Below are positions 1,156 to 23,916 of a stretch of 26,373 nt of DNA, one piece after another; the stretch's first letter is position 1, and each line of letters starts with the position of its first letter. The stretch covers positions 1-26,373 of the IMG/VR virus record IMGVR_UViG_3300033143_000668; one strand, given 5' to 3'. Under the pieces are notes generated by a model that was not told where the DNA came from, ran no database searches, and saw only the letters and a list, made by a program, of their open reading frames with translations. A program made the translations under genes and the position numbers. This DNA is from a virus.

Positions 1156-3921
1156 TTATAAATTAATTGTACCTGCCCTAGATTGAGAATGTCTCTCTTT
1201 ACTTGACTTAGCCATAAATATTATCTTACCTTGTGCATCTTTGTACACCATATCACCATTAGACTTCTGTTCTACTGACTTGATAGGTCTTGAAGGCTTA
1301 GACTTATTATAAGCCTCTGCTCTTCTTTTTCCTATACCTTTTACTGACTTACCACCTGCATATATCTTAGTAAGTATAGCTGTCTGTAGTGTCCCTTCAG
1401 TAGGGTTATTCATAAACTCTTTAATAGAAGACCACCCTAAAGCCCCTTCACCTGTATTGTATACAGTATCTAGTAGTGCTACTTTAAGGTTTCTAGGTAT
1501 ATTAGAGTTATTGTTATCAATCATATTAGAGAGGTCAGTTAAATACATAGTAGCTACTTCCTTATCTGATTTATCCTCTCCATATCTCTTCTTGATATTT
1601 TCAGTAACACCTAAGTCACCTGTAGGAGTATCTGTTAAAGTATCACCTGAGCCTTCTTGAGTCTCAAATGACTTAACCATATCCTCTACCATCATATTAT
1701 TACTAGCACCTTTAGCTGCCCTGCCCTTATCTTGTGCTAACCCTAGAGCATTCATCATACTCATTTGGTCATACTTAGATTGTGTATTGATAGATACATC
1801 AGGCTCTAAGTTAATATACTTAGCCTCAACCTCGTCTAATGCTTTATATACAGACTCTCTGAACTCCTCATTAGAAGTTATCTTCTGTAGTGTAGCTTCT
1901 TTATCATCCCTAGCTTCCTTCTGGTCTAATCCAAAGAATTCTGCTTGTCCTGGTGTCATACTATCTATCATATGATTGCCTAACCTAGAAGTCATATTAC
2001 CTACTAAGTCTCCTATAACTCCTGGTGTACCTACTGCTGTATCTACAGAGTTATCTACAAGTACTCTAAAGAAAGAACCTATAGCTGATGCATGGTCTCC
2101 TAATATAGTTCTATCTTCTACTCTCTGAGCTTCATATTCAGTTACTACTTTATTCTTATCTATATAAGGCTGTACATTAGTAATAGTAGTAGTACCTAAC
2201 TTATCAGATACAACCATAAGAGGTTCGCCTTTAGAGTTAGTCATATGTACTACATTATCACCATCTTTAACTACCTCACTAGATATAGCAGCATTAAAGG
2301 TCTCTTGATTAAGGGCTTGTGGGTGTTGACTCATAGAAGAGTCTATTGTAACACCATCTACTGTATCAATAGTAGAAGCAAAGTATTCTGCTACATTCTG
2401 GTATTCTTCCTTAGCTAACTGAGGGTTAATCTGCTTATACTGTGTCATTACATTTAAGAAGTTATTACCTTGTCTACCCAACTTCATAGCATACTCTCTA
2501 ATCTCCATCTCAGTACCTACATCTAACTTCATTATATTAGTAGATGCCTTAGACTTATCTATAGCATCTCTCAGCTCAGGTAATGTTTTATCACTATTAG
2601 CTAGACTCATACTATGTAGTACACTAACTCTAGTATACTCATCATCAGTTAACATTTGTCTAAGTGCAGTAGGTCCTTGATTAGTAGCATTAACATTACC
2701 TAAGAAGCCCATAAGAGATTGTAACTCTTTAGGGTCTGTAGCTTGGTTAATCTTATTAAGTAAGTACTCACCTGTCTTCTTACCAAAGTCTCTTTCATTA
2801 TAAGATATCCTAGCAAAGTTCTCATAGTCGCCATTAGATAGTGCAAGTGTTAAGTCCTTAGTTACTGCTGCTTGTCTCTCTTTCATAAGAGTCTTATTCT
2901 CTTTAGGTAGGGCTTGTGTTCTACTACCTATCTGATTATTATGGTTGTAAGCATCTGCCTCACCTCTTTCATTGTACTTCTTAGTATATGCCTCTACTTC
3001 CTTTACATAAGCTACATCATTAGCTGTAGTAGCCTTAATAGACTTTAACATAAAATCAGGATGAGTTCTATTACCATTTACTGCTGTCTTAGCTCTAAAA
3101 GAAAAATGTGTATCCTTAATGTCTTTCTGTTTAGCTTTTATAGAAGCAGTTAGACTAGCCTCCATAGAGTTAACATACTCTTGTCCTTGCTTCTGTCTAG
3201 TAGTAAGAAACTGTGGAGTCTTATAAGGAGCCTTAATATCCTCTACATCTGCTATAGCATTAGCTAAAGCTTCCTCAGTAGGTGCTGCTGTATTAACTGC
3301 ACTAATCATCTCTACATAAGCTTCTGACATTAATGCTCTAGATACAACTACCTTATCAAGTCTAGGATTAGCTGTAGTATATACATCTACAAAGTCTTGT
3401 GGTGTCTTACCTGACTGTTCATTAGTAAGAGTAAAAGAATCATCTACTCCAAACCCACCATACTCTTCACCACTATCTTCTTGCATCCAAGCCATCTGAG
3501 AAGCACCTGCTGCATTATAATGGGCATTATCTTCTATTACACCTCTAGCATTATACTGTCTAGCATATTCACCTGAAGAGTAACCCATAAAAGAATTCTG
3601 ATAAGCTTCTGACCTATCTGGTAAACTACTATAGATACCTTCTAGCATCTCAGCTTTACCTACAGCATCAGCATCAAGATAACCCTCAGATGTACTTACC
3701 TTTACCCAATCACCTTTAGCATTATTAGCTTCAGAAGCCTTCTCAGCATTAACTATATTAGTAGCTAAAGTAGCAGCCCCTCTAGTTATACCTCCTACAT
3801 CTATATGACCTGTACCTCTAGAAGCAATATCACTTATCTGTCTCTGTGCTCTAATATTTCCTGTATCAGTAATTCCTACTTCATTGAAGCCAGAACTAAA
3901 CTGTGTTATTACTCCACTCAT
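1156..3921 (-). CDS. Internal virion protein with C-terminal lysozyme-like domain (T7 gp15/gp16 role)
   Basis: This 921-aa protein is mostly polar and helix-rich with no signal peptide, as expected of a virion core protein. About residues 750-875 resemble a phage lysozyme (GH24-like, with some GH108 flavour). That segment has an acidic start around E753/E756-G757, then DTPTGDLGVT, which parallels the catalytic Glu, Asp and Thr region of T4 lysozyme. Next comes ALLDTVYNTGEGALGWSSI, like the conserved Asn-Gly helix, and near the end GIGKRRAEAYNK, like the family's closing G-x-x-x-RR-x-E. A short charged tail of about 45 residues follows. I infer that it is packaged in the head and ejected, locally opening peptidoglycan during DNA entry. 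It lies between the gp14-like gene and the large ejection-protein gene, with 11- and 12-base gaps. Fold family is moderately sure; exact class and activity are not. Confidence 0.8.
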   Translation of the reverse strand: MSGVITQFSSGFNEVGITDTGNIRAQRQISDIASRGTGHIDVGGITRGAATLATNIVNAEKASEANNAKGDWVKVSTSEGYLDADAVGKAEMLEGIYSSLPDRSEAYQNSFMGYSSGEYARQYNARGVIEDNAHYNAAGASQMAWMQEDSGEEYGGFGVDDSFTLTNEQSGKTPQDFVDVYTTANPRLDKVVVSRALMSEAYVEMISAVNTAAPTEEALANAIADVEDIKAPYKTPQFLTTRQKQGQEYVNSMEASLTASIKAKQKDIKDTHFSFRAKTAVNGNRTHPDFMLKSIKATTANDVAYVKEVEAYTKKYNERGEADAYNHNNQIGSRTQALPKENKTLMKERQAAVTKDLTLALSNGDYENFARISYNERDFGKKTGEYLLNKINQATDPKELQSLMGFLGNVNATNQGPTALRQMLTDDEYTRVSVLHSMSLANSDKTLPELRDAIDKSKASTNIMKLDVGTEMEIREYAMKLGRQGNNFLNVMTQYKQINPQLAKEEYQNVAEYFASTIDTVDGVTIDSSMSQHPQALNQETFNAAISSEVVKDGDNVVHMTNSKGEPLMVVSDKLGTTTITNVQPYIDKNKVVTEYEAQRVEDRTILGDHASAIGSFFRVLVDNSVDTAVGTPGVIGDLVGNMTSRLGNHMIDSMTPGQAEFFGLDQKEARDDKEATLQKITSNEEFRESVYKALDEVEAKYINLEPDVSINTQSKYDQMSMMNALGLAQDKGRAAKGASNNMMVEDMVKSFETQEGSGDTLTDTPTGDLGVTENIKKRYGEDKSDKEVATMYLTDLSNMIDNNNSNIPRNLKVALLDTVYNTGEGALGWSSIKEFMNNPTEGTLQTAILTKIYAGGKSVKGIGKRRAEAYNKSKPSRPIKSVEQKSNGDMVYKDAQGKIIFMAKSSKERHSQSRAGTINL

Positions 3922-5358: not shown

Positions 5359-5577
5359 TTATACCTTTCTATACTTTATAAGGCATCCTAGAGCACCACC
5401 TAATGTTATAAGTAAACCACCTACAATCTTCTTACCTCTAAGGCACTTAAAGAAGTCTGTTGTCTTACAATCACTATCATGTCCTTCACAACAATCTCCT
5501 ATATATGTTCTCTTCCACATAATAGGATTCTTCCAAGTATACCAATACTCAGGAAAACTTGTACACCAATCTTTCAT
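5359..5577 (-). CDS. Small membrane protein with phospholipase A2-like CCxxHD motif
   Basis: This is a 72-aa protein. The ATG at 5577 is preferred: GGAG lies six bases upstream and it follows the previous stop by one base; the longer reading would need TTG at 5589. Residues 28-37 read DCCEGHDSDC, resembling the secreted phospholipase A2 signature (Cys-Cys-x-x-His-Asp-x-Cys), where His and Asp form the active site and calcium site. Here His is residue 33 and Asp 34, and the following Cys is one residue later than usual. Further cysteines are at 5, 45 and 64. Residues 51-67 (IVGGLLITLGGALGCLI) form a likely membrane segment, followed by a basic end. Located after the tail-fibre cluster, where T7 keeps its holin, it is a candidate lysis or membrane-remodelling protein. 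The function is inference. Confidence 0.65.
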   Translation of the reverse strand: MKDWCTSFPEYWYTWKNPIMWKRTYIGDCCEGHDSDCKTTDFFKCLRGKKIVGGLLITLGGALGCLIKYRKV

Positions 5578-5578
5578 G

Positions 5579-6004
5579 CTATGCTCCAAATGCTGGTAGA
5601 ACAGCCAAGAACTCTTCAGCAGTAGTATTCATAGTAACTACACCATCTTGTTGAGCTATTCTAGCCTTCTCCCAACAAGATGTATTATAAGCTACTATAT
5701 CTACACAGAACTGTTGATGAATATAACCATCTTGTCCTGTGTACTTATGACAGCTATCTACATCTGTAAAGTGAACACCATGTTCCTCATTATACTTATC
5801 TATTTCTACTTGCACATGAGACTCTACTAGAGCTTCACCATCAGCTATCATCTTCTGTATAGCTTCTGCATTGATTGTATCCATATCTAAACTCATATCA
5901 GCATTGTAGTGCTTTTCATAGTCACCATTAGCTTTCTTTGTTAGTAGATTTTCATAGACTGAGGCAGAAACCCCAGCTACATTTACTTGTATCTTTCTAA
6001 GCAT
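5579..6004 (-). CDS. Unknown protein following the tail fibre (141 aa)
   Basis: This 141-aa acidic protein has no membrane segment or signal peptide. It begins with a beta-like stretch (KIQVNVAGVSASVY). The middle is charged and helical and contains the histidine-rich patch HGVHFTDVDSCHKY. The end (TMNTTAEEFLAVLPAFGA) resembles the C-termini of small proteins encoded next to tail fibres. The start overlaps the tail-fibre stop by 8 bases, implying co-translation. A tail-fibre chaperone or a small virion protein would fit the position, but no diagnostic motif supports either, so I leave the function open. Confidence 0.7.
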   Translation of the reverse strand: MLRKIQVNVAGVSASVYENLLTKKANGDYEKHYNADMSLDMDTINAEAIQKMIADGEALVESHVQVEIDKYNEEHGVHFTDVDSCHKYTGQDGYIHQQFCVDIVAYNTSCWEKARIAQQDGVVTMNTTAEEFLAVLPAFGA

Positions 6005-9000
6005 CTTGTACCTCCGTTGCTATTTTAGTTACTATTACCCTACATGGTGCAGAGGTGACTTGAGTCCCTGTATATCCAGTACCACCAATCATATATGCAG
6101 ATGCTGTGTATACTGCATTAGCTCCTGTTTGAACAATAATACCCGCTAGATTTGAATAACCTTTAGCTCCATATCCAGTAGTTCCAGTACCAGTATCGTT
6201 TCCTATTCCAGTACCACTCCATATGCCACCAACAAATACTTCACATCTAACTATACACCCCTCATAATTCTCATTACCAAAAGGATTATCAATTACATAT
6301 CTGTTGTTCTTAAACACAGTACCAAAATCTACTATCTTAACATTAGCATTCAGATTAGCTTCACCTTGAACTACAATAGCATTGAAGTAGCTCTGTAAAG
6401 GCTCATACTCTACTAAGTCATAGGCATTACCTTGACCATCTGATTTACATTCACCTAATGCCACTAAGTTTGTAGCTACATCACCTGAGTCATATACTAC
6501 TTTGTCTAGTGTGTTAAGGTATGGAGCATCTGATACTTCAAAGTTGAATTCTAGTTCTCCTATTGAAGTATAAGAAGCATCACCATTGTTTAAAGTAATT
6601 TCTATTCTAAAAGCTCTCAGTAAGCTAGTTGACGACACATCTAGTAAAGGACTAAAAGTATATGCATCTGGTATTGGAAAATCAGAAGATTCATAATCTG
6701 TGAAAACATCAATCCTTGTGCCACTTTCATTAACTGCTGTAAGTTTCCATCTTTTAGGTGTTTCTGTAATATCATCAGAAGATGCAAGTCTAAAAGATTT
6801 TAGCTTTTTATATACTATAGTGTCATATTGCAACCATGATACAGTAGTGGTATCTACTGCCCATTTTTCTGCGGATACTCCTGAACTTTTATCGAAAGCA
6901 AAGTATGGATAGTATGCAGCAAAAGGTTGACTTTCACTGATGATACCTGTAGCACTTTCATAGTCACCATGTCTATCAGTAGTCCTATAATCACCATTAA
7001 CAGTACCCCATCTATCAGCATCTATTCTTGATTGACCTACACCTAGATTCTGAACAAATCCTAAAGCATCACTACCTCTCTCTTTAAGTATATAAGCTGT
7101 TTCACCTGCAAAGCTACTTACATCAACTGTGTGAGCTGTTGTAGTTTCTTGTAGGTTTGTGAGTCCTATACCTTGTGTGTAAGTCAAGTCAATACCACTG
7201 TTGACTGTTATGTCTTTACCACCAGTTGGTTGGTTGTATTTAGGTGAGTATGCTTGGATTAGGTATAAGCCACCTGAAGCATTTACTGTAATACTTGTAC
7301 TTGTTATGACTATACCAATTGATGTAAAGTCTACATAATTCGCCCCAACACTCTCAAGAACACTCAGATTTGCAAATAGGGTATCATCACCATTACCTCT
7401 GAGAGTATCTACAATAGACCAATCACTTACACCATCCAATCTCTTCACCATCACATAACTACCATCAACAGTCATATCTAAACCAAAGTCTACTACATTA
7501 CCTACTTCACCTGTACCTGTGTATGCACCTATGTAGTGGTTATCTGAATCAGCTTGGAGGTATGTAATATGCTGATTTCCACTACCATTAGACATAGAGT
7601 TATCACCGACTGTATAATTATCATCTGTTGGTTCAGTATCATTCCATACAGTTATTGCTGGAGTAGACGCGGTTGTTGCGTTCAATGACATATAATCCGT
7701 TGCACTTTTTACATTATTGTAAGTATACCAATTAGAAGATGCTAATTCTAAGGATTTCTTAACAAAGAAACCAGGCTTACTCTGTAAACTATGTGGAATA
7801 CTTCTACCAGCTACACCATTACCAGTATCCATAATAATACTAAACCCTGTTGTAGGATTGTAATGCTCTATGATAGGATTACCAGCACTATCTGTAGCCA
7901 TCAAGTCAGTACCAGTGTTGTTCTTACTGTTCTGCATATCGCCTGCATCTGTACGATAACCTGCTGTCTTTCTAGTTGTTTGGTCTACCCATACTACACA
8001 ATCATTTGAATTAGTATTTAATTCAGAACTACTACCAATACTTAAAGAAGATACATTAATAGTTGAAAGTCTAGTTGTGTCATTCCCCTCTATTACTGTA
8101 GTGTCTGATGATAACCAATTTCCAGCTCTTCTTATAGAATCAAATAGTTGGTTATTATTAGCTGCATCTCTATCTTTAAACCAAAACCTACCACCATATT
8201 GATTAGTTTCTAGTACCCAGTTAGTAGTGTCTAGACGTGGGTTAGTTGAAGAGTTGGTACCAGTTAAGTTACGATAAGCTAACTGGTCACCACTTGCACT
8301 ATCATCAATAGCTACGCCTCCAATTGCATATGAAGCTACATTAGTCCATGGTTGAGCTAATGTCGAACCATCTCCATTATCATTAGCAATTTGCATTAGT
8401 GGTACTTCTTTTACTAATACATTGTCAAATTCTGCATATTCACCATCATTACTACTGCCACAAATTAATTGTATTTCATGTGATGAAGCAGTTGCAACAA
8501 AAATAAGATTATATACTTTTGCATCTGCCGTAAAAGGAGTGGATACTAATCCACTAATTCTCATAGAGGCTACTGCTGTTGTATTAATTAACTCAGCACT
8601 AAAACTATAAGTTTTTCCAATTATTGTAGAAATAGTTTGAAGTATAATTGGGTCTTGTGTACCATTTCTAGTTATCCTAATCTTATCTATTTCGTGTGTA
8701 ATGTCTCCAGTTGAAGAAGTCCATCCAGTTGTATCAGTAGTAAAATGACCATTAGTAACTAACTCATTACCAATAACTCCACCATGAACAGGTACATCTT
8801 GACTTGTTCCATTACCAGTATAGAGGATAGGCATAGAGCCAGTAACTTCTGTTGTTGCTAGGGCTAAAGCACCTGATGTAAGAGTACCATTATTAATTAC
8901 ACCTGGCACTTCACCTACTGAAGAGGCACTATTGGCTGCCGCTACCTCACTTGCTAAGGCATTAGTCTCAGATAAAGCTGCATTAGTTTCACTTGTACTG

Positions 9001-9683
9001 GCTGCTGCTGCTGATGCTGCACTATTAGTCTCAGATGTAGCGGCTGCTGCTTCACTTGCTGCACTATTAGTCTCAGATGTAGCTGCTGCTACTTCACTTG
9101 CTGCTGAGTTAGTCTCTGATGTAGCTGCTGCTACTTCACTTGCTGCTGAGTTAGTCTCTGATGTAGCTGCTGCTACTTCACTTGCTGCTGAGTTAGTCTC
9201 TGATGTACTAGCTGCTGCTTCTGATGCTGCACTATTAGTCTCAGATGTAGCGGCTGCTGTTTCTGATGCTAGAGCTAATACTGCACTTGCTGCTGCATTA
9301 TCTGCTGCTGCTTCTGCTCTCTCTACTGAAGGAGCTGTTAGTGTTTCTCCAAACTCTTCAGAAGATGAAGCCACCTCTACCCATATATAAGAACCTGCTG
9401 TAGGAGCTTCATAGTATAATACACTATTATCTACTATCTGCCACTTATCTACTGTAACTAAATCCGCAGACTTAGGAGCATTATTACCTCTCTTATATAG
9501 ATTATCAGGGAAGCCCCAATCACTACCTATATCTTGTAATACATCCTCACTACCATCTGGGTTTAATGTCTCATCATATACATATGCATATGGTCTACAA
9601 AAGTTCTCACTTCTAATAATAAAATCACTTAGGAATCTATTAGTTGAACCATCTACATCTTCAAATAACCTTTTAGCTATCAA
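5997..9683 (-). CDS. Tail fibre / adhesin, multidomain (1228 aa)
   Basis: This is the probable host-recognition fibre. Residues 1-115 form a mixed N-terminal domain that presumably docks on the tail. Residues 120-255 are an Ala/Ser/Thr/Glu-rich coiled-coil-like stalk containing six tandem 14-residue repeats (SETNSAASEVAAAT type). About residues 304-428 resemble a carbohydrate-binding jelly roll (NELVTNGHFTTDTTGW start, ending AEFDNVLVKEV). Residues 600-815 are beta-rich, with DFGLDMTVDGSYVMVKRLDG like receptor domains of marine phage fibres. About residues 910-1050 resemble a discoidin (F5/8 type C) domain (SQPFAAYYPYFAFDKS through SLLRAFRIEITL). The end is Gly-rich and may form a tip. T7 gp17 is 553 aa, so this fibre is more than twice as long. 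It follows tail tubular protein B and overlaps the next gene by 8 bases. CpG dinucleotides are far denser here than in flanking genes. Confidence 0.88.
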   Translation of the reverse strand: MIAKRLFEDVDGSTNRFLSDFIIRSENFCRPYAYVYDETLNPDGSEDVLQDIGSDWGFPDNLYKRGNNAPKSADLVTVDKWQIVDNSVLYYEAPTAGSYIWVEVASSSEEFGETLTAPSVERAEAAADNAAASAVLALASETAAATSETNSAASEAAASTSETNSAASEVAAATSETNSAASEVAAATSETNSAASEVAAATSETNSAASEAAAATSETNSAASAAAASTSETNAALSETNALASEVAAANSASSVGEVPGVINNGTLTSGALALATTEVTGSMPILYTGNGTSQDVPVHGGVIGNELVTNGHFTTDTTGWTSSTGDITHEIDKIRITRNGTQDPIILQTISTIIGKTYSFSAELINTTAVASMRISGLVSTPFTADAKVYNLIFVATASSHEIQLICGSSNDGEYAEFDNVLVKEVPLMQIANDNGDGSTLAQPWTNVASYAIGGVAIDDSASGDQLAYRNLTGTNSSTNPRLDTTNWVLETNQYGGRFWFKDRDAANNNQLFDSIRRAGNWLSSDTTVIEGNDTTRLSTINVSSLSIGSSSELNTNSNDCVVWVDQTTRKTAGYRTDAGDMQNSKNNTGTDLMATDSAGNPIIEHYNPTTGFSIIMDTGNGVAGRSIPHSLQSKPGFFVKKSLELASSNWYTYNNVKSATDYMSLNATTASTPAITVWNDTEPTDDNYTVGDNSMSNGSGNQHITYLQADSDNHYIGAYTGTGEVGNVVDFGLDMTVDGSYVMVKRLDGVSDWSIVDTLRGNGDDTLFANLSVLESVGANYVDFTSIGIVITSTSITVNASGGLYLIQAYSPKYNQPTGGKDITVNSGIDLTYTQGIGLTNLQETTTAHTVDVSSFAGETAYILKERGSDALGFVQNLGVGQSRIDADRWGTVNGDYRTTDRHGDYESATGIISESQPFAAYYPYFAFDKSSGVSAEKWAVDTTTVSWLQYDTIVYKKLKSFRLASSDDITETPKRWKLTAVNESGTRIDVFTDYESSDFPIPDAYTFSPLLDVSSTSLLRAFRIEITLNNGDASYTSIGELEFNFEVSDAPYLNTLDKVVYDSGDVATNLVALGECKSDGQGNAYDLVEYEPLQSYFNAIVVQGEANLNANVKIVDFGTVFKNNRYVIDNPFGNENYEGCIVRCEVFVGGIWSGTGIGNDTGTGTTGYGAKGYSNLAGIIVQTGANAVYTASAYMIGGTGYTGTQVTSAPCRVIVTKIATEVQDA
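8994..9245 (-). repeat. Six tandem 42-base repeats in the tail-fibre stalk
   Basis: Six head-to-tail copies of a 42-base unit encode the 14-residue motif SETN-SAAS-E-V/A-AAA-T/S (fibre residues 147-230). The central copies are nearly identical in DNA as well as protein, which indicates recent expansion or homogenisation by recombination or slippage. A degenerate partial unit follows on the C-terminal side. The repeat makes an artificial long open frame on the plus strand. Confidence 0.92.
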
Positions 9684-9699
9684 AATTACTTCTCCTTAT

Positions 9700-11979
9700 T
9701 TATACTCTTGTGGACCTCTGAAAGAAGTAACCCTCAAGGTTTGCTGTAGACAATTCAAATCCCTTACTAGGGGCTTCTGTACTACTTTTGAAAGTAATTA
9801 TTACCTTCTTACTATTTGCCATTACTGTTACTTTATCATCATCTGTATATATTCTACTATATAGTGGGTCTATATCTACCCATATAAGGGTATCATCCCA
9901 AGTATCTGTATCATCCCAAATAGTACCATACATTGTATCTTCATCAAATAAGTTACTATCAGTATTAAATATCTCAGTAACATATCTACTACTCTCTTCT
10001 ATTGTATACTGTAGTGTTCTTAATTGGTATCTACCTCTAACTGAGCCTTTACCATCAGCATCTCTAAAGAAGAATTCAGAGAACACAATAGCTGATTCAT
10101 ACTCTACTACAGCATCTATACTATTATATTTATCTAAGTAACTTATAGTATCTATATCACCTGGTATCTCTAGGTTCATACTAACTAAGTCTCCATCTGA
10201 GAATAGTATATATAGGTCATTATTAATAATATGAGTACTAACTATATCCTTCTCAAATACCCACCTATGAAATGCATTCTGTAAATCCTCTTGTCCTTTA
10301 AGGATAGAAGTAAGTACAGTTAATTGTTTAGGGTATGTTTCAGTCTCCATAAAAGTATAGCCTAGTACATCATGTCCTATTATCCTACTAATAGTATTAT
10401 CTATATATGTAGGTAGGTGTAGAGTCATAGCATTAGCTTCTGTTAACTTACTGCCTGCATCTGTAATTCTATATGAGTATATCTGACTATACCCACCTGC
10501 TTGATTAGCAAAGAATACTCTATTACCTACAGCCTTAGCAGCAGCTCTATTACCATATGTGTAATTACTTAATGGTGTGATATCTGCTGAGTTAGGTGTA
10601 AGAGGTCCTTCTAGTGCATCTAATGAAAACTGAGTATCATCTGCAAACAAGATTAATTGTCCTGCTGTAGGTACTGCATGTCTTAATATAGTTACATCTT
10701 GACTAGCAACTGCTAAATCAATAGGGTCATCATCTAGTACATTCTGTAAAGTCTGAAAGAAGAAGTTACCATAATCACTAGTCCTAGATAATACAATACT
10801 ATCATTAGTAATAAAACCTAGTCTGTTCTTATGGAAGAATATATTATTAATAGACTTACCTACAAATGAAGGGTTCTCTAATTCATCATCTCCTCCTGAT
10901 TCTCTCATACCCCATTTGGATACACCATCTAATGCACTACCATCTGTTATTATACCTTGGAACTCATTAAACTCAAAGCCACCTGTAAGCCTATACAATA
11001 CATGGGGCATAGTAGTAGGGTCTAATGTAGTTAAACTACCTGGTGCTGCTACTTCACTCCAAGTCTTATCTGTATAGTCATACTGTAAGTAGTAGTCATC
11101 AAACTCTGCTGATGTACCACCTGATACTTTTACTATGAACCCATCTAAGGCTGAAGGCATATTAACAGGTAAGTCTCCTGATTCTTTAACTACTTTCCAT
11201 ACCCCTATAGAAGCCTCATCTCCAAATGTATCACTCCAAGACCAATCACTGCCTACAAAACTAGTCTTATAAGCTATAGCATCTTCTGCTGTATCTACTA
11301 GACTGTTAGCCACATCTGCTGCAAACTCTGTTGCTATATCATAAGCTGAGCTTAACTCTATAGCTGTTTGTCCTGGTCTAGTCTCTTCTGTACCCTCTAC
11401 TTCTAGATTATTAAGAGTATAAGTATATCCTTTCATTAGGCTACCTACCTCTGTACTAGAAGTATATTGTTCATGTACAACTAATGTAGTCTTCTTAATC
11501 CAATAAAAAGCCATATCACTATAACCAGAACTAGAAGCTACTGCTGCAGTAAAACTAGTCTGTACTGATTGATTAACTATAAATGTATGGTCTCCTATAG
11601 TTAAGGCACTAAATGTCTCTTTAGCTCTAAGTCCTACTAGAGTAAGATAAGCATCTCCTGTCTTAGTATACAGAGCTACCCCATCTGTATCATTAGTATT
11701 GTATACTCTTAAACTACCATCACCAGGTATTACTACCATATACTGTTCTGTATCTGTACCTCTATCATATGTATATACAAAACAATCAGATAAGTCTGTA
11801 GGCAGTCCTTGTAGTTGTGCTACTGGTGTGATAGGGTTTCTTCTAAGTACACCTCTAGTAATAGAAGGTATACAATTACTCATTGAAGTTACTTGACTAT
11901 CAAATCTACCTTCTTGATACTGTTGGGTTACCCCTTGAGCTAGGCTTGATAGAGTATTGTTTATTAATTTTCCCGCCAT
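9700..11979 (-). CDS. Tail tubular protein B (T7 gp12-like nozzle)
   Basis: This 759-aa protein is close to the size of T7 gp12 (794 aa). The N-terminus (INNTLSSLAQGVTQQYQEGRFDSQ, then NCIPSITRGVLRRNP) follows the family pattern of an early hydrophobic motif, a Gly-Val-x-Gln-Gln segment and an Arg-rich loop that contacts the rest of the tail. The body is beta-rich, with strands such as SKWGMRESGGDDELENPSF and KNRLGFITNDSIVLSRTSDYGNFF, the last being a very typical gp12-family stretch. It forms the nozzle at the tail tip and carries fibre-binding surfaces. It starts 2 bases after the gp11-like gene ends, and the tail fibre follows. CpG is almost absent, in contrast to the fibre next door. Confidence 0.93.
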   Translation of the reverse strand: MAGKLINNTLSSLAQGVTQQYQEGRFDSQVTSMSNCIPSITRGVLRRNPITPVAQLQGLPTDLSDCFVYTYDRGTDTEQYMVVIPGDGSLRVYNTNDTDGVALYTKTGDAYLTLVGLRAKETFSALTIGDHTFIVNQSVQTSFTAAVASSSGYSDMAFYWIKKTTLVVHEQYTSSTEVGSLMKGYTYTLNNLEVEGTEETRPGQTAIELSSAYDIATEFAADVANSLVDTAEDAIAYKTSFVGSDWSWSDTFGDEASIGVWKVVKESGDLPVNMPSALDGFIVKVSGGTSAEFDDYYLQYDYTDKTWSEVAAPGSLTTLDPTTMPHVLYRLTGGFEFNEFQGIITDGSALDGVSKWGMRESGGDDELENPSFVGKSINNIFFHKNRLGFITNDSIVLSRTSDYGNFFFQTLQNVLDDDPIDLAVASQDVTILRHAVPTAGQLILFADDTQFSLDALEGPLTPNSADITPLSNYTYGNRAAAKAVGNRVFFANQAGGYSQIYSYRITDAGSKLTEANAMTLHLPTYIDNTISRIIGHDVLGYTFMETETYPKQLTVLTSILKGQEDLQNAFHRWVFEKDIVSTHIINNDLYILFSDGDLVSMNLEIPGDIDTISYLDKYNSIDAVVEYESAIVFSEFFFRDADGKGSVRGRYQLRTLQYTIEESSRYVTEIFNTDSNLFDEDTMYGTIWDDTDTWDDTLIWVDIDPLYSRIYTDDDKVTVMANSKKVIITFKSSTEAPSKGFELSTANLEGYFFQRSTRV

Positions 11980-20502: not shown

Positions 20503-20814
20503 TTAATCTCTCTCCTTTAAATAATCTAGTGCATCTTCTATGCTTTCTATTGTGTCTCCTAACATACCAAGTCCTCTATTACATTTGTTACATAGTACTC
20601 CTCTAATCTTACCTGTCTTATGGTTGTGGTCTAAATGTTTAGACTCTCTAATACCACATAATTCACAGACAGGACTAGCACTAAATAACTTATCATATTC
20701 TTCAGCAGTAATATCATACCTCTTCTTAATATTATATTCTCTTCTATATAGTCTCTGTTTTTCTTCATTTCTTTTGTGCCATCTCTGTTGCCTACTAAGT
20801 TCTTCCTGCAGCAT
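20503..20814 (-). CDS. Endonuclease VII-type (HNH) nuclease, short copy (103 aa)
   Basis: This 103-aa protein has a basic helical N-terminus and the endonuclease VII core: C50-x2-C53, then LDHNHKTGKIRGVLCNKCN with D62-H63-N64-H65, C75-x2-C78 and N79, followed by GLGMLGDTIESIEDALDYLK. The four cysteines bind zinc, and the Asp-His set is the beta-beta-alpha-metal active site. The family resolves branched DNA in T4; free-standing copies can also act as homing nucleases. The start has AGAGGAGAAGAAGTAAGG before it. It lies between the 44-aa gene and the exonuclease and shares its core with the copy after the polymerase. Confidence 0.9.
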   Translation of the reverse strand: MLQEELSRQQRWHKRNEEKQRLYRREYNIKKRYDITAEEYDKLFSASPVCELCGIRESKHLDHNHKTGKIRGVLCNKCNRGLGMLGDTIESIEDALDYLKERD

Positions 20815-21800: not shown

Positions 21801-22208
21801 TTACTTTCTCCTCTTCTTCAGGTAGGTTACCATTTTATTTATAGCTTCTAGTGTATCTCCTAGTTGTCCTAATCCTGCATTACATGTTCTACATAGTACA
21901 CCCCTAAACTCCATAGTTGTATGGTCATGGTCATACACTAAGTTCTCTTCTCTACCACAGGCTTCACAGCAGTGTGAGGTCTCCATCCTCTTCTCATACT
22001 CTTCATATTCTATACCATATCTCTTTCTTGTTTGTAGTTTCTGCTTATACTTATGTGATTTATAGTCATCTCTTTGTTTAGCTGAGTTACATTCCTTACA
22101 TATATTAGCCTTACCATACTTCATATCTTTCTTAGAGTAGAACTGTTCTAAGTCCTCCTCCTTATATGCCATTAGTTTACATACTCTACATGTTCTAATG
22201 GGTTTCAT
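21801..22208 (-). CDS. Endonuclease VII-type (HNH) nuclease, long copy (135 aa)
   Basis: The protein is 135 aa from the ATG at 22208; a longer reading would need TTG at 22223 and overlap the polymerase more. An N-terminal zinc module (C7-x2-C10, C37-x2-C40) precedes the catalytic module: C81-x2-C84, YDHDHTTMEFRGVLC with D93-H94-D95-H96, C106-x2-C109 and N110, then GLGQLGDTLEAINKMVTYL. The core is that of T4 endonuclease VII, which resolves branched DNA. Position just behind the DNA polymerase gene is also a classic site for a homing endonuclease. GGAAG lies 8 bases before the start. The core closely resembles the 103-aa copy. Confidence 0.88.
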   Translation of the reverse strand: MKPIRTCRVCKLMAYKEEDLEQFYSKKDMKYGKANICKECNSAKQRDDYKSHKYKQKLQTRKRYGIEYEEYEKRMETSHCCEACGREENLVYDHDHTTMEFRGVLCRTCNAGLGQLGDTLEAINKMVTYLKKRRK

Positions 22209-23916
22209 ACCAGTTTCTTCCAACCTTACTTTCCCCTTCCATTTTGATTCTCATACCTATGTCCTCACCAACTGTTATGAACAACTCCTCTAGTTTTTTA
22301 GCAAATTCCTCAGCTTGGTCTTCTCTAGTTTCTATCTGCAATTCGTCATGTATATTACCTACTATGTGTGCATCATACTTACTATCTACTATCATCTTAT
22401 CTACAGCTACTACCCAATACTTCATATAGTATGCACCTGCTGATTGGAGGAGTGTATTAAGTGCACTATGTGGTGACCTTATGAATAGTCTTCTACCACT
22501 TAACCCTCTAATCCATTTCTTTCTAGCTGCTTTTCTGACATCTCCAACAAGTCCATCAAGTCCTCTTGTCTTCTTAAGAAATCTTGCCTTAAGTCTAGCT
22601 CCCTCTTTGCTATCTCCACCTGTGATACTTCCAATCTTTGCATCACCTGCTCCATAGAGGAATGCATAGATGAAAGTCTTAGCTGTGTCTCTAGTAGGCA
22701 ATCCTGCTGCCTCTTGATTAGCCGTGTGTATATCGCCTTCAAGTACTTGTCTTCCATATGCTCCTCCATCATATCTTGCTAGGTAGTGGGAGAGAGTTCT
22801 AAGCTCAAGCCCCGAAGCATCAGCCCCAACAAGCTTATAATTGCTCCCAACTTCAAAGAGACCTCTAGCTTCTCTTCCTTTGTAAGCCCGTACTGAGGGT
22901 ACTTGTGCAAGGTTCGGGTTGCTATGAGTAAATCTTCCTGTAACTGCTCCCAGTATATCTGCTTGTCCATGTATTCTATCTCCTCTTATATTCTTTAACC
23001 ATGCTTTAGGTCCCTCGGCTAATTGTCCTAGTAGTTTATTAACTTCTAAGTAATGTAGTAGTGGCTCTAAGAAAGGTTCCTCTCCAAACATATCCTTAAG
23101 TGTCTCAGCATCTGTCTTAGGATTATTCTTATCAGTAAGTACCCATTTCTGTTTACCTAGATGATGTTCTATCCACCATACTACATGCTTACCACTCCCA
23201 GGATTGAATGTCCTTAGCTTTATCGGCTGATGCGGTCCCACTGTTGATACACCCATTCTCCTAAACGGTCTCTTAGGTGTCTTAATCTTACCAGCTGGTA
23301 GTAGCATTGGAATGAAAGTTCTCCATAGACTTTCTTCAGCCAACTCTTTTTCTTGTGTAAGTTGTATGTGTAGTTCTCTTGCTTTCTTTTCATTAAATCT
23401 CCATCCTTTTATATATTGTCTAGTTACTATCCTTTGTACATCTTGTTCCAATTCAAGTGCTTCTTTAGGGAGCCAAGTTGTCTTCCTCTTAAGATGTTGG
23501 TATAGTTTCTTGGTAACCTTAACATCTTGTATACAGTATTCCTCCATCTCTTTTGTGTACTTACTCCAATCATTATAGCTCCCCTTCTTCTCTCCTAGTC
23601 TTTCTCCATATGCATCCAATGAATGCGACCAGCTTTTGTCCTTATCATAGTAAGCTAACTTAGCTAGAACAAGAGTGTCAATAACTTGTACATGTGGGCT
23701 AATATCAATACCGCACAAAATAAGAATAACAGGGATATCATAGCCAATAATATTGTGTCCGATAATAGTATCGGCTTTACATAAGTCTGTAGCCAATTCT
23801 TTTGCTTCATAATATACTTTCTCCTCTTTAGTTTCTATACAGTAAGTAACTCCTACCCACAGCTGTGTTACATCTAGTAGTAGTCCATCTGTTTCTATAT
23901 CAAAAATTAATGTCAT
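22195..23916 (-). CDS. Family A DNA polymerase with 3'-5' exonuclease (T7 gp5-like)
   Basis: This is a 573-aa replicative polymerase. Proofreading domain: FDIETDGL (D6, E8), GHNIIGYD (D60) and YCIQD (Y127, D131). Polymerase: TGRFTHSNPNLAQVPS, motif A GADASGLELR (D366), motif B RDTAKTFIYAFLYGAG (R409, K413, Y417, Y421) and motif C NIHDELQ (H523, D524, E525). Y417 corresponds to E. coli Pol I F762. T7 gp5 is 704 aa, so this version is shorter; I see no obvious counterpart of T7's thioredoxin-binding insertion, so its processivity may rest on something else. ATGA overlap with the zinc-ribbon gene upstream. CpG content is clearly higher than in the neighbouring genes. Confidence 0.96.
   Translation of the reverse strand: MTLIFDIETDGLLLDVTQLWVGVTYCIETKEEKVYYEAKELATDLCKADTIIGHNIIGYDIPVILILCGIDISPHVQVIDTLVLAKLAYYDKDKSWSHSLDAYGERLGEKKGSYNDWSKYTKEMEEYCIQDVKVTKKLYQHLKRKTTWLPKEALELEQDVQRIVTRQYIKGWRFNEKKARELHIQLTQEKELAEESLWRTFIPMLLPAGKIKTPKRPFRRMGVSTVGPHQPIKLRTFNPGSGKHVVWWIEHHLGKQKWVLTDKNNPKTDAETLKDMFGEEPFLEPLLHYLEVNKLLGQLAEGPKAWLKNIRGDRIHGQADILGAVTGRFTHSNPNLAQVPSVRAYKGREARGLFEVGSNYKLVGADASGLELRTLSHYLARYDGGAYGRQVLEGDIHTANQEAAGLPTRDTAKTFIYAFLYGAGDAKIGSITGGDSKEGARLKARFLKKTRGLDGLVGDVRKAARKKWIRGLSGRRLFIRSPHSALNTLLQSAGAYYMKYWVVAVDKMIVDSKYDAHIVGNIHDELQIETREDQAEEFAKKLEELFITVGEDIGMRIKMEGESKVGRNWYETH

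Follow-up and report, generated by a model that had tools for sequence, protein, structure and literature searches.

A 72-residue phospholipase A2-like protein encoded behind the tail fibre of a T7-like phage as a candidate auxiliary lysis protein

Secreted phospholipases A2 (PLA2s) are marked by the pattern HDxxY followed by D-x5-C, as in the D99 to C105 spacing of the pancreatic enzyme. The classical scheme of phage lysis consists of holin, endolysin and spanin and includes no lipid hydrolase. In the literature that we searched, mostly without subscription papers, a PLA2-type protein is nowhere described as part of a phage lysis cassette. A recognisable spanin was missing from about 13% of 677 surveyed genomes, and other routes through the outer membrane have been asked for; a type I protein with N-out/C-in topology was named as a conceivable alternative to spanins (PMC6139136).

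The whole stretch of DNA analysed here, referred to as the window, is a 26.4 kb fragment of a T7-like phage. Its nozzle gene (9700-11979) matches phrog_457 (E 3.5e-133), and the encoded protein shares 43.5% identity with the nozzle of Roseobacter phage CRP-143. Adjoining the nozzle gene is a long tail-fibre-like gene for 1228 aa (5997..9683, minus strand), which contains a run of short ETNSAASEAAAATS-like repeats in the N-terminal part of its product, followed by a gene for 141 aa (5579..6004, minus strand) in the position of a tail-fibre assembly protein. The TAG of the 141-aa gene ends one base ahead of the ATG (5577-5575) of a small gene on the same strand (5359..5577), which runs to a TAA stop at 5361-5359 and encodes a product of 72 aa, MKDWCTSFPEYWYTWKNPIMWKRTYIGDCCEGHDSDCKTTDFFKCLRGKKIVGGLLITLGGALGCLIKYRKV. 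This open reading frame is a real gene because a ribosome-binding-site-like GGAG (5584..5587, minus strand) stands 7-10 bases before its ATG, the upstream stop abuts it, and homologues with intact frames occur in the same place. The slot after the tail fibre, which is the T7 holin position named in the sequence-only reading, is real. Downstream of the 72-aa gene come a 122-aa protein, a short-tail-fibre-like protein, a 190-aa protein and a 921-aa protein, and no lysis gene directly follows it in the window. The 921-aa protein (1156-3921, minus strand) is internal virion-like and bears a C-terminal lysozyme-type domain (residues 748-921; phrog_31077, E 2e-23). Apart from the 72-aa protein, nothing in the window, which is a fragment, stood out as a holin candidate. 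Among the relatives of the window, the 72-aa gene is patchy; it occurs in 3 of 12 mostly fragmentary records and is absent from CRP-143. Elsewhere in the window, two small proteins (20503-20814 and 21801-22223, minus strand) resemble endonuclease VII-type recombination endonucleases by eye (CELCG/CEACG ... DHDH ... RGVLC).

The 72-aa protein had first been noticed for its DCCEGHDSDC stretch, read as a PLA2 signature with a shifted final Cys and a membrane span behind it, and the stretch and a C-terminal hydrophobic helix are both confirmed. KDWCT (residues 2-6; 5560..5574, minus strand, as are all features of this protein below) aligns with T42-D43-L44-C45-T46 of the Streptomyces PLA2 1FAZ, and Cys30, His33 and Asp34 of CCEGHD (residues 29-34; 5476..5493) align with C61, H64 and D65. 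In group XIV enzymes such as 1FAZ/1KP4, Ca2+ is bound by the aligned Asp, the carbonyl of the next residue and the Asp of HD. The active-site C-x-x-H-D of group XIV PLA2s is found in CCEGHD, and their upstream Asp-x-Cys of the Ca2+ site (D43-L44-C45) in KDWCT, as residues from which Ca2+ binding and a disulfide to the Cys before HD are predicted. The dyad Asp and the Tyr of HDxxY are replaced by Thr39 (5461..5463), six residues before the core Cys45 (5443..5445), and by Cys37 (5467..5469), respectively; nearly all members of a second clade of the family, clade B, have both residues. The final Cys, which had been called shifted, sits on the Tyr position of HDxxY. Family comparison shows Cys45 to be a conserved Cys of the second helix. 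Residues 51-69 (5371..5427) form the most hydrophobic 19-residue stretch of the protein, with a mean Kyte-Doolittle hydropathy of 1.74 and an AF2-modelled helix at residues 54-70, and are a plausible, though not certain, membrane span. The description as membrane-bound is thus plausible, but in many close relatives the same helix is weaker (mean hydropathy 0.8-1.3).

On its own, the window protein matched nothing in Pfam, PHROGs, PDB or GenBank phages when searched by sequence, and as the sole query of a locus search it yielded no relative; the family was opened only through a degenerate DNA pattern and synteny. The pattern, W-C ... C-C-x-x-H-D-x-x-C, matched 66 stretches in virus contigs, of which three were true relatives (L003, L027 and L041) and most were rejected as out-of-frame chance matches. 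Two further relatives (L068 and L077) were located downstream of homologous nozzle genes. Profile searches gave 30 loci for the clade of the window (clade A) and 25 for clade B, which was reached via Aurantimonas phage AmM-1 and the Pseudomonas phages 8P, USP_18, USP_25, ZRG1, Epa5 and Epa43; gp49 of Mannheimia phage 3927AP2 is a further member. The profiles of the two clades align in hhalign with a probability of 95.6% and a score of 47, which indicates that the clades are related. The only four confirmed matches in bacterial genomes (L111-L114) are all in Campylobacterota MAGs (Sulfurimonas, Helicobacteraceae), hinting that clade A phages may infect Campylobacterota. Eighteen of 28 relatives match phrog_6098 (best E 3e-28); the window protein itself does not match this HMM and is tied to PHROG 6098 through its clade. 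Judged by these profile matches, the family is PHROG 6098 and its kin, an uncharacterised group found in T7-like, P2/Mu-like and other phages.

Conservation of His33 and Asp34 in homologues had been proposed as a check, and the His-Asp pair is kept in 51 of 51 non-identical relatives, nearly all within C-C-x-x-H-D, a figure to which selection contributed, as H-D was part of some of the search patterns. A search with the N-terminal D-x-C-T pattern, which has no H-D in it, still yielded complete relatives that all have H-D, and nearly all of the 51 retain D-x-C-[ST] at the N-terminus. From these comparisons the motif in the window protein is judged to be more than chance. One relative (L095:4992-5240) has LC in place of CC and has lost the core Cys with H-D intact. 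Clade A members have a Cys three residues after H-D and, in most cases, Thr or Ser six residues before the core Cys; in clade B, Tyr occupies the HDxxY position and, in nearly all members, Asp the one six before the core Cys. Cys37 tends to occur together with a Cys of the third helix, Cys65 in the window protein: 25 members have both, and 15 members with Tyr have neither. This suggests a Cys37-Cys65 disulfide joining the third helix to the core, and shared descent could also explain the co-occurrence. If the disulfide is real, the clade A helix may rest on the membrane surface without spanning it, with which the weak hydropathy in many clade A members agrees; that of the window protein is stronger. 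A sub-clade with a long loop after HD (L102 and L104-L108: L104, L105, L106, L107 and L108), without the Asp at the dyad position and partly without the extra cysteines, is a possible intermediate between the clades.

A profile search against PLA2 families had been suggested as a further check; the search made here covered the whole library of 177,635 distinct PDB sequences and was not steered towards PLA2. A profile of 39 relatives placed three bacterial or fungal group XIV PLA2s at the top, with E-values that are all sub-significant (1faz 0.095, 4aup 0.28, 7ygk 0.37), and the alignment was nearly gapless from KDxCT to HD, covering the Ca2+-ligand Asp, the disulfide Cys and the His-Asp pair. 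In hhalign, the same profile matched an alignment of four PLA2s with a probability of 76% and a score of 32.2, as compared to a maximum of 17.05 in 150 column shuffles; clade A alone scored 24.1 against a shuffle maximum of 16.8. Single members gave weak Pfam matches to Phospholip_A2_3 (E 0.012) and PLA2G12 (E 0.035), and one to Toxin_17 (E 0.002) was set aside as an artefact of the Cys pattern. Sequence searches of Pfam, NCBIfam and PDB gave no significant match; the window protein does not reach the cut-off of the PF09056 family HMM, and there is no PF09056 match in the window. In the AF2 models of the window protein (pLDDT 82.6) and of a relative, L135 (pLDDT 87.9), a beta hairpin or loop is combined with two short helices next to each other and a third, longer one. 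Foldseek found no PLA2 match with either model, which weighs against PLA2 homology. All Foldseek matches of the window model were taken as noise, and two parvovirus/densovirus VP1 entries (PLA2-bearing) at E 7-8 were not counted as evidence. Overall, PLA2 ancestry of the family is probable, and homology to group XIV PLA2s is supported but not proven. The designation as a PLA2-like lipase therefore holds for motif and ancestry, given the conserved residues and the top PDB matches, and not for a proven enzyme or fold.

Whether the window protein itself catalyses is uncertain from its residues. In plant secreted PLA2s, Ser, Asn or His has been reported in the role of the dyad Asp (PMC6635587), and Thr39 is thus no disproof of catalysis. 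Catalysis appears more likely in clade B than in the clade of the window, because clade B has the full residue set, whereas Thr39 replaces the dyad Asp in the other.

In T7-like, P2/Mu-like and other phages alike, the PLA2-like gene begins on or right next to the stop codon of a tail-fibre or fibre-assembly-like gene at almost every locus. Of 32 clade A loci, 14 have a peptidoglycan hydrolase within the next 2.3 kb downstream, a few of the contigs involved being closely related to one another. In L099 the order is PLA2-like gene, holin (PF05105), Rz-like gene, small lipoprotein and T4-type lysozyme, and L088 likewise has a separate holin. P2/Mu-like relatives have either the tail sheath gene or the end of the genome behind the PLA2-like gene; the gene of the Mu-like phage 3927AP2 follows the tail fibre near the right end, and that of ZRG1 lies between baseplate V and PAAR genes. 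The adjacency of lysis genes could be hitch-hiking, since the tail-fibre module is the constant neighbour. Two relatives go beyond adjacency. One open frame in L130 (5992-7125) joins the PLA2-like unit to a GH19-like endolysin (phrog_181, E 2e-40; phrog_6098, E 6e-21), and one in L140 (5986-7104) joins it to a Phage_lysozyme2 endolysin (Phage_lysozyme2, E 2e-18; phrog_6098, E 1e-16). The two fusions look independent because they carry different hydrolases; both end in C-terminal hydrophobic segments, and they are possibly multi-function lysis proteins. In L140, AAGGA precedes an internal ATG, from which the endolysin may also be made alone. These fusions are the best evidence for a lysis role, and together with the frequent lysis neighbours they strengthen the earlier idea of a lysis tool.

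Our working reading, which we hold tentatively and at somewhat less than even confidence, is that the window protein is a miniature, PLA2-derived and probably membrane-attached auxiliary lysis protein, and not the holin. The Ca2+-loop-like KDxCT, the helix with CCxxHD and the second helix would form a miniature PLA2-derived domain, held at the membrane by the hydrophobic third helix. The domain would probably be periplasmic, where the six conserved cysteines can form disulfides. An N-out, C-in topology fits, most clearly in clade B, because the C-terminus is basic; in the window protein both flanks of the helix are basic and point to neither orientation. Synthesis would be late and translationally coupled to the tail-fibre module. 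The protein would most likely act at the end of infection, hydrolysing or at least disturbing host phospholipids, and such damage would help holin, endolysin and spanins to break the envelope. The gene, its family, the conservation, the gene neighbourhood and the endolysin fusions are directly shown by the data; we infer this topology, as well as the lysis role and catalysis. A bolder version, in which a membrane-tethered miniature PLA2 that destroys host phospholipid in lysis represents a new class of phage lysis factor, built into the endolysin in some phages and with a Thr-containing active site in the clade of the window, is rather doubtful.

Ancestry, activity and role are separate questions, so that the readings weighed here overlap and our confidence in them may add up to more or less than one. 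One rival is that catalysis was lost in the clade of the window and that the PLA2-derived scaffold left there serves as a small structural or regulatory membrane protein, such as a holin or antiholin partner or a membrane binder. The changes from Asp to Thr and from Tyr to Cys would be expected of it, the Cys37/Cys65 co-occurrence suggests a structural disulfide remodelling the old active site, and several relatives adjoin separate holin and endolysin genes. However, a pure scaffold would not need the invariant His33 and Asp34, and the Ca2+ ligand position near the N-terminus still holds its Asp; we consider this reading unlikely. It is quite unlikely that the PLA2 resemblance arose by convergence in a small Cys/His/Asp-rich disulfide or metal-binding hairpin. 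Sub-significant E-values and the missing fold match leave room for it, but the distances between Asp, Cys, His-Asp, Tyr and Asp agree throughout with PLA2, the top three PDB matches belong to one enzyme family, and the score is far above the shuffles.

Alternatively, the protein might belong to the virion or tail and, produced along with the tail fibre, serve in entry by attacking or binding the host membrane at infection, as the overlap with fibre and assembly genes across phage types and the baseplate V and PAAR flanks in ZRG1 might suggest. A hydrophobic helix with a basic tail nevertheless fits an inner-membrane protein of the producing cell, and endolysin fusions with C-terminal membrane segments fit lysis better; an entry role is very unlikely. 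The same fusions and the frequent lysis neighbours argue against an accessory late gene behind the tail fibre, for example for superinfection exclusion, whose PLA2-like residues would bind Ca2+ or another metal without hydrolysis; despite the patchy presence of the gene and its place near the right end of 3927AP2, such a role is highly improbable.

A small PLA2-like protein that is widespread, encoded where fibre and lysis genes meet and twice fused to an endolysin gives the idea of lipid attack in lysis a concrete candidate that is easy to test. If the auxiliary lysis reading is true, this domain would be among the smallest of PLA2 type, and it would give a meaning to an unnamed family of T7-like, P2/Mu-like and other phages. 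PHROG 6098 (78 positions) is unassigned in function in PHROGs, where no link to PLA2 is drawn.

The T7 holin gp17.5 and the window protein are both small, have a hydrophobic segment and are encoded right after the tail fibre. Unlike gp17.5, the window protein has a PLA2-like Cys/His/Asp core, and its relatives have separate holins. The position of the T7 holin, to which the sequence-only reading had likened the locus, is accordingly shared as a slot after the tail fibre, while a holin role is unlikely, with several relatives beside a separate holin, an Rz-like gene and an endolysin; we rejected it as the main reading in view of the holins of L099 and L088. Spanins (Rz/Rz1, T1 gp11) are likewise small lysis-cassette proteins with a hydrophobic helix. 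In contrast to them, neither a lipobox nor an N-terminal membrane anchor with a coiled coil was seen in the 72 residues of the window protein, and relatives adjoin separate Rz-like genes; a replacement for spanins was rejected because an Rz-like gene coexists in L099. In residues, the phage proteins resemble the group XIV PLA2s (PF09056; Streptomyces violaceoruber 1FAZ/1KP4). They are shorter, with 67-93 aa versus about 120, and differ by the extra CC, the hydrophobic third helix and no signal peptide seen. They share the order and spacing of Asp-x-Cys, Cys and His-Asp, with the C45-C61 spacing of 16 equalled in P0003 and AmM-1, and clade B additionally shares the Tyr and the Asp.
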